NCBI GenBank assembly: GCA_016466735.1 | Contig: JAAOED010000020.1 | Location: forward strand, 1 to 43,961 | Length of the DNA stretch: 43,961 bases | Direction of reading: 5' to 3' | From: Weissella confusa | GTDB lineage: Bacteria > Bacillota > Bacilli > Lactobacillales > Lactobacillaceae | In this document: piece by piece, positions 14,427 through 43,961 of the stretch | Layout of the letters: each line of letters opens with the position of its first letter | How positions within the stretch are numbered: the stretch's first letter is position 1 | Program-made: the position numbers and the translations under genes | The notes under the pieces: generated by a model | What the model saw: the letters and a program-made list of their open reading frames with translations, nothing else | What the model was told of the DNA's origin: nothing | The model's database searches: none

Positions 14427-15155
14427 CTACACAAACGGCACAATTTCTTCACGATTGGTCAATTTTGCACCAGCTGCTTCATCAATAATAACTGTGACAT
14501 TTGCATGCTTTTGTAAGATACTTGCAGGCATCTCCTCCGTCACAGGTCCTTCGATCATAGCTGCCACAGCATCTGCCTTCGCTGCACCATAGGCAACCAA
14601 TAAAATTTGCTTCGCCTTCATGATGCTACCAATTCCCATTGAGTAGGCGTAGCGAGGCACTTCGTTTTCGTTCTCGAAGAAACGTGCATTCGCTTCGATT
14701 GTTGACTCAGTTAGCGTTACTTCGTGCGTCAAAGAGTCAAATGGCGTACCAGGCTCGTTGAACCCGATATGACCATTTTGACCCAATCCCAAAATTTGTA
14801 GATCGATTGGGTTGGCATCAATGATACCTTCGTAACGCCTCGTCTCAGTTTCGGCATCAGCCATACCGTCCGGCACGTAACTCTCCTTAAATGGCTTAGC
14901 GTTGAACAAGTGCTCGTTCATGAAGTAACGGTAGCTTTGCTCGTGCGTACCAGGCAAGCCCTTGTATTCGTCCAAGTTGATTGAAATCTTATCAGAGAAA
15001 TCCAAATCACTGGCCTTCAACTCATCATAAATTGAGATTGGCGTTGAACCAGTCGCCAACCCGAAAACTTGTGCGCCATTCTTAACAGCCTCTGCGAATA
15101 CTTCGTACCCTGCGCGGCCACCAGCTTGTTGATCTTTAACTTGTAGAATCTTCAT
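14427..15155 (-). CDS. nagB: Glucosamine-6-phosphate deaminase
   Basis: This 242-aa enzyme converts glucosamine-6-P to fructose-6-P and ammonia, feeding amino sugars from GlcNAc and wall turnover into glycolysis. It shows [15 protein letters not shown] (~34-48), the sugar-binding [19 protein letters not shown], and [16 protein letters not shown] with the catalytic Asp/Glu/His region. Length matches short Bacillota NagB. AGGGG lies 8 nt before the ATG. It is monocistronic with NagR-like operators at its promoter. Confidence 0.96.
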
Positions 15156-15263: not shown

Positions 15264-15616
15264 GGTTTTGTTAGTTGGTGGCTAGTGTCGTCGCTATCGC
15301 ACCGAGGCATGGGATTATCATCCACCGGAAAATAGATGGATAAACTGTTCACCCCGCAGTTTTTTCGGTGGATGATAATCAAACAATCAGAGTATTGCTC
15401 GGCTGCTGTGCTTGGCCCCGCCACGCGTATAGACACGTGCAGACCTTGACCCGCAGGTGTGGGTTCTTAGCGGTTTTACCGCTTAGAGCCACGGGAGGTA
15501 AAGGCGTACGCGCCAACGGCGTGGACTCCGCTCCCTGCAGGTCATGGTCTGGACGTGTTAGCGTGCCCTAGAAGGGGCCAAGCACTCCGGCCGTCAGGAC
15601 GGACACTAACCGAAAA
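15264..15616. ncRNA. Structured repeat element, copy 1 (possible large ncRNA)
   Basis: The ~350-nt non-coding element folds into nested long-range helices. These are P1 terminal 15280-15289/15602-15611, P2 15313-15327/15366-15380 (perfect 15 bp) with inner 15342-15347/15357-15362, P3 15408-15419/15574-15585 (perfect 12 bp), P4 15433-15445/15546-15558, P5 15447-15457/15534-15544, P6 around 15462-15489, and P7 15511-15514/15518-15521. Most of these recur with compensated sequence in copy 2. Unpaired conserved blocks include TCAAACAATCAGAG and GAGGTAAAGG. It lies between the nagB promoter and the thrS terminator. Strand is uncertain because wobble pairs give conflicting hints. Confidence 0.75.
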
Positions 15617-15660
15617 CTAAAAAGACCTGACATCAGGAATTCCCCAACATCAGGTCTTTA
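15616..15660 (-). terminator. thrS terminator
   Basis: AAAGACCTGA / TCAGGTCTTT pair, with partial pairing further in, followed by TTTTTAG on the minus strand. Confidence 0.88.
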
Positions 15661-15671
15661 ATCGTTAATTA

Positions 15672-17648
15672 TTATCCCTTAACGGCCTTTTCCAATGTCT
15701 CCATTGCGCGTGAGTGACGTGCAATATCTGACATCAACTCTGCTTCAAAGGCATCAACAGACTTTGACTTCGTGTCCGTTGAACCGAAGCGACGAATTGT
15801 AACCGTGTTGTTGTTAACTTCTTCATCACCGATAACCAACGTGTAAGGAACCTTAGACGTTTGAGCATCGCGAATCAAGTAACCCAACTTCTCGTTACGG
15901 TCTTCGTATTCGGCACGGATACCTTGCTTGATCAAACGATCAGCCAAGTCCTTAGCGAACTTACCATGAGCATCGCGGTTAACAGGAATGATACGTACTT
16001 GGTGTGGTGCCAACCAAGTTGGGAACGCACCCTTGTACATTTCAGTCAAGTAAGCCGTGAAGCGCTCCATCGTAGAAATAATTCCACGGTGGATCATAAC
16101 TGGACGGTGCAATTCACCATCTGGTCCAACGTAAGTAACATCGAAACGCTCAGGCAACAAGAAGTCCAATTGGATCGTTGACAACGTCTCTTCACCACCC
16201 AAAGCCGTCTTGATTTGCACGTCCAACTTTGGTCCGTAGAACGCAGCTTCACCTTCAGCTTCGAAGTAATCCAACTCCATGTCGTCCATGGCCTTCTTCA
16301 ACATCGTTTGTGCCTTGTCCCACATATCATCGTCATCGTAGTACTTTTCCGTGTTTTCAGGGTCACGGTATGACAAACGGAAACGGTAATCCGTGATATC
16401 AAAGTCAGCGTATACGTCGATCATCAAGCCCAAAATCTTCTTGAACTCGTCCTCGATTTGGTCTGGCATAACGAACGTGTGACCGTCGTTCAACGTCATT
16501 TCACGAACACGTGACAAACCAGTCAAGGCACCTGACTTCTCGTAACGGTGCATCATTCCCAATTCAGCAATTCGGAATGGCAACTCACGGTATGAACGTG
16601 GCTTGTGCTTAAACACCATGATGTGAGATGGGCAGTTCATTGGACGCAATTCCAAGAACTCGCCATCACCCATATCCATAGGTGGGAACATGTCATCGCG
16701 GTAGTGATCCCAGTGACCTGATTGCTTGTACAAGTTCAAGTTTGACATGATTGGCGTGTAAACGTGTTGGTAACCATCTTGCACTTCACGGTCAACAATG
16801 TAACGCTCCAACGTACGACGGATAGCAGCACCGTTTGGCATCCAAACAGCCAAACCAGCACCAACTTCTTGAGACGTGAAGAACAAGTCTTGCTCAGCAC
16901 CGATCTTACGGTGATCACGTTCCTTAGCTTCTTCACGACGCTTCATTTCAGCATCCAAGTCTTCAGCCGTCCAGAATGCCGTTCCGTAAATACGTTGCAA
17001 CATTGGGTTTGAAGACTTTCCACGCCAGTAAGCACCAGCAACTGACGTCAACTTAAAGTGCTTGATCCAGTTCGTTGATGGTACCAAACCACCACGATCC
17101 AATTCAACGTGCTCACCTTGCACAGCAATTGAGATGTGCTCATCGGCTGGCAAGTCGTTAATCAATTCAATCTTGTATGGATCGTTCTTGAACATTTCCA
17201 AAGCTTCGTCGCGCGTAATCTCACGAGAAACAATTGGCAAGTTTTCTGAAGCAATTTGCTTCATCATCTTTTCAATCTCAGGGAATTGCTCAGCTGAAAT
17301 TTGGCTACCCTCAACCTTATCAGTATCGTAGTAGAAACCGTTGTCGATGGCTGGACCAACACCGTAGTGAATTTGGTCTGGGTACAAACGGTTCAAAGCT
17401 TGTGCCAACAAGTGAGAAACAGAGTGACGCAACAATTGCAATCCTTCTGCATCATCCTTGGTAATCAATGAGAAAGCACCATCTTCTTGAATGCCATCGT
17501 TCATACCAACGTAGTGACCGTTCAACTTACCTGAAACAGACTTCTTAGCCAATGACTTTGAAATACCATTAGCAATTTCCAACGGCGTTACGCCAGCTGG
17601 GAATTCCTTCACAGCACCGTCTGGGAATGTAATCTTTACATCTGCCAT
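15672..17648 (-). CDS. thrS: Threonyl-tRNA synthetase
   Basis: This enzyme charges tRNA-Thr. The start [11 protein letters not shown] at 17648 gives 658 aa, the usual size, with an N-terminal TGS domain (1-60) and an editing domain (~70-230). The class II core includes the zinc ligands in RPMNCPSHI, and the C-terminal anticodon-binding domain begins [10 protein letters not shown]. The open frame continues 67 codons further upstream, but that sequence is the T-box leader and is not coding. Regulated by uncharged tRNA-Thr through the leader at 17698-17935. Monocistronic. Confidence 0.97.
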
Positions 17649-17697
17649 ATTGTGTAATCTCCTATTTAATCTGCGTGCGACTTGACGCGCGAAAAAC

Positions 17698-17935
17698 AAA
17701 AACGTCCCGTTACAACAATTATACTTGTCGTAACGGGACGTTTGCACGCGGTACCACCCGAATTCGAGAGGGTTCCCCCTCACCTCATCGTCCCTTAACG
17801 CGGGAAACGGAACTGGTTCACCAGTTCGCTTGGAAGTAGTACCGTTCAACGACCGTTATCTGCCTCCCACCGATGGCAAACTCTCTATAAACAATCTTGT
17901 TCAACGACTTATCTTCGTCAACGCTTTATTCTTAA
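17698..17935 (-). promoter_or_regulatory. thrS leader: Threonine T-box riboswitch leader
   Basis: On the minus strand the leader carries the T-box core GGGTGGTACCGCG (17747-17759), which pairs with the tRNA acceptor end. It is followed by a long terminator hairpin (AAACGTCCCGTTAC / GTAACGGGACGTTT, 17698-17743) ending in GTTTTTG. Stem I upstream begins with AGAGAG and has a GGTGGGAGG apical region. It contains the likely Thr specifier ACT, found twice in GGTACTACTTCC (17832-17843). Uncharged tRNA-Thr is expected to stabilise the antiterminator and switch thrS on. Confidence 0.93.
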
Positions 17936-36660: not shown

Positions 36661-37030
36661 CTAGTTTTGTGGTGTGTGTCGACGCGTTGCGTCGAGTGGC
36701 TGGGGGCTTCTAGTCTGTTATGGATTTCCATCTACCGGAAAACAAATTGGTGAACAGTCCACCCTGTTATCTTGTGGTAGATGAATATCAAACAATCAGA
36801 GCATTGCTCGGCTGCCGTGACCTGCCCCGCCGAGCGTATAGACCCAAGTGGACCTTGACCCGTGGGTGTGGGTTCTTAGCGGGTTTCCCGCTTAGAGCCA
36901 CGAGGAGGTAAAGGTGTACACTGCAACGCAGTGGACTCCGCTCCCCACAGGTCATGGTCCACTTGGGTTAGCGAGCCTAAAGAAGGGGCAGGTCACTCGG
37001 CGCGATAGCGACGACACTAACCACCTAACT
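36661..37030. ncRNA. Structured repeat element, copy 2 (possible large ncRNA)
   Basis: Same architecture as copy 1, but helices carry different, compensated sequences. P1 is 36669-36680/37013-37024. P2 is 36729-36736/36776-36783 with inner AACAG/CTGTT (36753-36757/36764-36768). P3 is 36817-36828/36985-36996 (perfect 12 bp), P4 36843-36854/36956-36967 (perfect 12 bp), P5 36856-36866/36944-36954, and P7 36920-36924/36928-36932. Unpaired blocks AAACAATCAGAG, TTGCTCGGCTGC and GAGGTAAAGG match copy 1. It lies between the yqeG promoter and the ddl terminator. No coding capacity is conserved. Confidence 0.75.
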
Positions 37031-37041
37031 ACCACCTAAAT

Positions 37042-43794: not shown

Positions 43795-43813
43795 CATATT
43801 TTGGTTAGAAATT

Positions 43814-43961
43814 GAGTTTGTGGTGTGTGTCCGTCCTACCGGCCGGAGTGCTTGGCCCCTTCTAGGGCACGCTAACACGCACTGACCATGACCTGCAGGG
43901 AGCGCGAACCACAGCAAGCTGCGTTTCCCTTCCATGTATAGTCAAGCAGGACGCTCATTTA
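43814..43961. ncRNA. Structured repeat element, copy 3 (inverted, cut by window edge)
   Basis: Reading on the plus strand this matches the reverse complement of the 3' half of copy 1. It has the terminal GTGGTGTGTGTC, then CGGAGTGCTTGGCCCC (one arm of P3, 43848-43859), the GACCATGACCTGCAGGGAG block and a P7-like hairpin CAGC/GCTG (43912-43920). Beyond 43925 the match to copies 1 and 2 weakens before the window ends. It lies upstream of the groESL promoter. Confidence 0.6.

Follow-up and report, generated by a model that had tools for sequence, protein, structure and literature searches.

According to PMC3049150, the BOX elements of Streptococcus (boxA-boxB-boxC, and boxA to boxF in S. suis) are composite interspersed repeats with varying modules and strong predicted folding that spread mainly in the past, and MITEs are described as AT-rich. 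BIME/REP sequences are mosaic palindromic repeats (PMC2817692), the REP units measure 20-40 bp (PMC3733652) and REPs are targets of insertion sequences (PMC1525189).

The element described here was found in Weissella confusa, on a contig of 43,961 nucleotides (JAAOED010000020.1) that is referred to below as the window and whose numbering is used throughout. The large structured bacterial RNAs, which include HEARO, GOLLD, ROOL, OLE and raiA, resemble it in size and fold complexity but differ from its dyad layout, and none is matched by it in Rfam. It shares with MITEs the small size, the terminal inverted repeats and the folding, whereas its G+C content of 55% (window 46%) is not AT-rich and no consistent target-site duplication accompanies it. 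With BIME/REP sequences and their RAYT it has in common the mosaic of palindromic repeats, but the host assembly contains no Y1 transposase. The likeness to BOX extends to the assembly from modules, the variable module content, the strong fold and the mainly past spread. In BOX, however, boxA and boxC stand around a variable boxB tandem array and even the large modules of S. suis have mean lengths of 115 and 133 nt, whereas the Weissella element has two outward arms of approximately 175-208 nt, a dyad centre and interchangeable arm families; the comparison is one of described features. The family is a new one, like BOX in kind, that is set apart by its dyad plan, by large arms that covary and by an arm content differing between species at fixed sites. 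No report of it was found in the literature on Weissella repeats and RNA (most subscription papers lying outside the search), no title about it stood among the matches listed for the broader repeat literature, and a term search of PMC10969869 gave no mention of Lactobacill-, Weissella or Leuconostoc.

The window copy and the plan of the element

The repeat family is composite, dyad-symmetric and non-coding, and the interval 15264-15616 is one of its truncated members. The interval is flanked by two ORFs of the minus strand, which from their sequences we take to be nagB-like (14427-15155) and thrS-like (15672-17849). The thrS terminator (15659-15621, minus strand) lies on one side, its tail being the place where the interval ends, and on the other side a promoter-like site upstream of nagB (15240-15212, minus strand) adjoins the interval start. 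A T-box leader (17731-17930, minus strand, 100.9 bits) is located upstream of the thrS-like gene.

The original prediction had presented the interval as a non-coding, strongly folded repeat of no known class, and in these respects it was borne out. None of the listed ORFs (80 aa or longer) extends over the interval. The named helices GATTATCATCCACCG/CGGTGGATGATAATC, TGCTTGGCCCC/GGGGCCAAGCA and ACGTGCAGACC/GGTCTGGACGT are present, and the fold has a z-score of -7.4 on the plus strand and -11.3 on the minus strand, with none of 100 shuffles equally stable on either. A DNA search of the host genome returned 51 matching pieces, and a covariance model recovered at least 29 distinct centres. No Rfam family matches the element, either in the window at the gathering score, in the interval up to an E-value of 5 or in six loci with other arms up to an E-value of 0.5; what the search did yield, the thrS T-box and three weak matches that fell short of the gathering score, lies outside the element.

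The interval is not, on the other hand, the whole unit that it had been taken for, since it lacks the left arm and a portion of the centre. As ordered by eye, a full copy consists of a G/T-rich end, an end hairpin, a left arm in reverse orientation, a centre, a right arm in forward orientation, a second end hairpin and an A/C-rich end. The centre is quasi-palindromic and measures 124 nt, the arms approximately 175-208 nt and the ends with their hairpins approximately 40 nt per side; the full element, calculated from these parts, is approximately 550-620 bp long. Each arm is a self-closed folded domain when read outward from the centre, and both arms are in sense in that direction, so that on one strand the left arm appears as the reverse complement of its type. 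The terminal inverted repeats, compared by eye in the printed copies, are imperfect and consist of the G/T-rich left and A/C-rich right ends around GTGTC/GACAC. Four arm families (A to D) were distinguished, and sorting by motif of 80 arm positions around 40 centres gave 46 B, 12 A, 13 C and 3 D arms and 6 positions that fall into none of these families, the modules varying between copies and sites.

The window copy begins with the G/T-rich terminal repeat GTTAGTTGGTGGCTAGTGTC (15270-15289), recognised by eye as the counterpart of the A/C-rich right end of other copies, and a left end hairpin of the type CGTCGCTATCGC..CG (15289-15304, by eye). The following AGGCATGG (15305-15312) corresponds in full copies to the base of an A- or C-type arm and is the remnant of the lost left arm. 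The truncated centre occupies 15313-15408 on the plus strand, where R1, a covariance model of the 124-nt centre built from 31 copies, matches at 15297-15408. Then comes the one arm that was kept, a B-type folded domain (15409-15584, plus strand) with the hairpins CTTAGCGG..CCGCTTAG and GGTAAAGG..GGACTCC, assigned by a match of 195 bits to the B-arm model R2 and by the covariation of its family. The right end hairpin CTCCGGCCGTCAGGACGG (15585-15602, by eye) and the A/C-rich right end (15603-15620) close the copy; the latter runs into the thrS terminator tail, as seen in the sequence and the terminator scan.

A second copy at 36661-37035 (plus strand) comprises a left end with its hairpin, a remnant of a B'-type arm, a centre (36693-36817, plus strand), a B2-type arm matched by R2 (36818-36995, plus strand), a right end hairpin and an A/C-rich end. 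A third copy (43812-43929, minus strand) is represented by the right part alone, that is, the 3' half of a B arm, the end hairpin and the right end, and it is followed by the end of an insert in the B-arm tip (43930-43961, minus strand), within which the contig stops. The G+C fraction is 0.555 and 0.548 in two element copies against 0.456 for the window. In one host locus (L002, contig C2) a simple G-run/C-run hairpin takes the place of one arm.

A single large non-coding RNA, as had been proposed, is not supported: the element is a dyad whose arms point outward, so that in any one transcript the two arms have opposite senses, and a scan of two copies revealed no promoter-like site within them. 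The statement that no protein gene is attached is true of the window copy, but several host copies carry the B-arm tip insert, the interior of which is unassembled. The insert occupies one exact position of the tip in several host copies, among them the third window copy, L020 and L027, and contig ends break host copies at this point on four right sides and three left sides. It was absent from the 59 other genomes searched; its ends had no match in the plasmid collection, and one of them had none in the viral contigs. The insert may represent an insertion sequence with the arm as its target. A different, hairpin-rich insert of approximately 72 nt follows TTAGCG in both a B' and a B2 arm of host contig C16 (L016 and L028), at the same place in each.

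Covariation and wobble pairs in the arms

Covariation among the copies is present in the B arms and lacking in the centre. In the 28 of 40 B-family arms that were tested, both sides had changed in 37 of 65 pairs against 30.0 in shuffles, and in 314 cells against 112.3, values that none of 500 shuffles reached, although the B arms form few subfamilies and the independent events are consequently fewer than the counts. Control structures slid out of place gave 3-9 pairs, and further pair types were without excess (59 against 62.7 in shuffles). In the centre, 6 pairs had changed on both sides against 5.1 in shuffles, and further pair types numbered 22 against 19.3, a value reached in 23 of 500 shuffles. 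The centre as an RNA hairpin is unsupported, the double-sided changes being at the level of the shuffles. Compensatory Watson-Crick columns, counted among the pairs common to the folds of both strands, occur in all four arm families: 35 of 65 in B (40 arms), 30 of 79 in C (24 arms), 16 of 69 in A (16 arms) and 13 of 59 in D (9 arms).

The cells with GU and with AC in these common pairs are balanced in B (29:28) and D (8:10) and biased in A (24:5) and C (47:7); the RNase P RNA of the genus, taken from 28 genomes as a control, gave 58:6. The wobble and compensatory counts of A, C and D cover all arms found by motif (16, 24 and 9, respectively), the earlier A and C sets having been partial with 11 arms each. 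This alignment-based count replaced a single-sequence count of 1x1 mismatches that had used minimum-energy folds and an unoriented RNase P control. Pairs formed on one strand only, with forward GU set against reverse AC, gave 95:0 in B, 46:41 in A, 96:58 in C, 22:10 in D and 339:159 in RNase P, but these numbers lean toward the strand used for the prediction and were not relied on. The bias seen in the aligned A and C arms points to folding of the outward strand, with wobble pairs tolerated. A G.T pair is also a mild mismatch in DNA, and RNA and single-stranded DNA are therefore not told apart by this bias.

Unpaired blocks and mismatches are part of what is conserved. Of the two unpaired blocks proposed at the outset, GAGGTAAAGG is nearly invariant in the B arms, but TCAAACAATCAGAG is conserved only in part. 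CTTAG..CTTAG, GTATAGA and GGTAAAGG are likewise nearly invariant across the B arms, and CTTAG..CTTAG is also found in the C arms. The lower stems of the A and C arms vary between copies and pair nearly perfectly throughout.

Distribution and comparison of sites

A search at the DNA level covered 100 genomes, namely those of the host, 27 congeners and 72 others. It matched the host and the congeners G003, G004, G021, G023 and G027; a 25-nt match in another genus was taken as chance. Distinct centres found with R1 number at least 29 in the host, at least 6 in each of G003, G004 and G023, at least 4 in G021 and at least 9 in G027, the two strands of one place being counted once. These are lower bounds, with 150 of 657-787 candidates scored per genome (150 of 787 in the host). 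The B-arm model R2 was applied to 251 genomes of the family, with strict filters and the scoring limited to 10 candidates in each genome. Besides the host, it matched five genomes from other genera: a genus here called g15 contributed two of them, with six matches each, and the other three had single matches, of which two were weak (1.1e-4 and 4.7e-4). None of the five congeners known to carry the element is among these matches, presumably since they were not in the sample drawn, and absence elsewhere is not proven by this search. Among 295 genomes of the order, the host was the sole match to R2.

Fifteen loci of the other-genus genomes, 12 of them from g15, were searched again. An inverted two-arm layout occurs in 5 of the 12 g15 loci (L292 and L295-L298), with a centre of 285-371 nt between outward arms. 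The hairpin CTTAGYG..CRCTTAG with its T.T mismatch is present in all six other-genus loci that were printed, one-base variants of it occur in other copies (L292 and L297), and GU:AC in the common pairs of other-genus arms is 13:3 and 7:2. Plasmid and phage collections contained no match to the element or to its other-genus counterpart. In viral contigs the B-arm core had no match, and four stretches matching the centre pattern were all judged chance after inspection. Genome contigs gave 22 matching stretches, of which 7 are real and all in Weissella confusa records; the other 15 come from unrelated taxa, and the four examined look like chance matches in coding sequence.

At the thrS-nagB site the element is present in the host, G003, G004, G023 and G027 and lacking in G001, G005, G011 and G017, and G021 has other sequence there. 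Among the loci compared, 10 of 25 host sites have an orthologous copy, with flanks approximately 93-99.5% identical between carriers. The remaining 15 were searched in G027, G023, G003 and G021, G004 being omitted because it is 66% complete. The flanks lie close together without the element at 15 of 15 of these host-only sites in G027 and at 14 of 15 in G003; for C14b, one flank alone matched in G003 and G023 was used for comparison. Inspection by eye revealed remnants of the element in relatives at six of the 15 (C1a, C2a, C13, C17, C17b and win2). At win2, the site of the second window copy, the scar GTGACC|AGGTCAC joins the two base halves of the B2 stem; at C2a a remnant is also found in the more distant G021 (L274); and at C13 half an element with an A arm stands in G023, against C and B2 arms in the host. 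The reading of all host-only copies as fresh insertions is weakened by these remnants. At the other nine sites the relatives show no clear remnant, so the host lineage may have gained the element there recently. The 15 comparisons of filled and element-free sites revealed no consistent target-site duplication, and six element-free sites look like deletion scars.

Arm content differs between species at fixed places. The arm pair agrees at one (C7) of the 11 sites occupied in at least two genomes, as scored by the motif scan; at C3b, C14, C8b, C2d, C2b, C4m, C2c, C13, C23b and thrS-nagB the arms are not the same or, in a truncated copy, are absent. The scan missed the A arm of G003 at C23b, which was found separately. 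The centre is inverted, together with the whole element, in G003 at thrS-nagB and in G027 at C2c. Most genomes compared are drafts in which repeats of this type could be mis-joined, but G027 consists of three contigs, which makes mis-joining unlikely as the whole cause of the arm differences. In G004 the element and its flanks are scrambled and partly inverted at L140 and L167, which may be an assembly error in this 66% complete genome.

Proposed spread, exchange and loss of the element

The composite repeat, which is observed, is best explained together with a mechanism of spread and exchange that we infer, and the joint reading is given a probability of about 0.6. The element would be non-autonomous selfish DNA that spread, at least largely, before the species of the group split. 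Its arms would be recognised as folded single strands by a protein encoded elsewhere, and the strand may be marked by mismatches and loops that are conserved, the T.T mismatch of CTTAG..CTTAG among them. Much of the present change would consist of recombination or conversion between resident copies, by which arms are replaced or inverted at fixed places, and further change probably comes from deletions that leave short scars, one of them apparently starting at the base of a stem.

No mobilising protein was found: a Y1 transposase (PF01797) was absent from the assemblies of the host, G003 and G027, where unassembled repeats could hide one. PF01797 matched 3 of the 12 genomes searched, with one match in G021, one in G023 and three in G001, a genome that gave no match to the element. 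No autonomous transposon with shared ends was found in the host, the insert-bearing copies being unassembled. That the element is a non-autonomous derivative of a known transposon, with the B-arm tip insert as the autonomous parent, would explain the exact position of the insert in several host copies, but this origin is very doubtful: the insert was found in the host alone (0 of 59 other genomes) and splits an existing arm hairpin, as a repeat-targeting insertion sequence would, and its interior is unassembled.

The arms could instead be functional RNAs with a cellular role, like other large and ornate RNAs of bacteria, either two outward structured RNAs or one long transcript. The strong covariation in every arm family speaks for such a role, and the wobble bias of the A and C arms and of the other genus (13:3 and 7:2), similar to that of a structural RNA such as RNase P (58:6), leaves room for it. 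We nevertheless consider it unlikely, as the B and D arms have no such bias, the scan of two copies found no promoter-like site within them, every single transcript would have one arm in antisense and the presence of copies varies among close species. Distinctly less probable is a BIME-like chromosomal repeat useful to the host, whose folded arms would be bound by a nucleoid, gyrase or terminator-related protein and whose copies would be kept for that reason. Of 24 host sites, 16 have a terminator-like hairpin directed toward the element, and 17 of 48 flanks carry one against 11 of 200 random window pieces, a loose, unmatched control that is mostly coding; the scan missed the thrS terminator beside the first window copy. 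Some sites are also old. Against this usefulness, the 15 host-only sites are element-free in G027 (15 of 15) and G003 (14 of 15), and the arm type at a site is unconserved. Long palindromes perfected by template switching during replication, with no selection for the fold, would account for lower stems of A and C arms that differ per copy yet pair nearly perfectly. Template switching would erase loops and mismatches too, so the near invariance of those of the B arms (CTTAG..CTTAG, GTATAGA and GGTAAAGG) counts against this mutational origin, as does the recurrence of the CTTAG hairpin in other genera, and we regard it as highly improbable.

Beyond the preferred reading of selfish DNA exchanged between resident copies, a bolder proposal, held only tentatively and thought rather unlikely, is a superfamily of two-armed repeats, new to this bacterial family, in which the unit of spread is the folded arm, and arms copy themselves as folded single strands over resident arms by module homing. 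If this were true, sites would stay fixed while their arm content turns over.

A common explanation for composite repeats in bacteria is that a resident transposase moves short hairpins; the modules of this family are large folded domains that clearly covary. The family offers a natural system for studying the exchange and loss of folded DNA in chromosomes, and for asking which protein reads it. Host contigs C4, C7, C8, C9, C20, C23 and C27 end inside element copies, so that the family fragments the draft assembly of the host and matters for genome comparison in this group.
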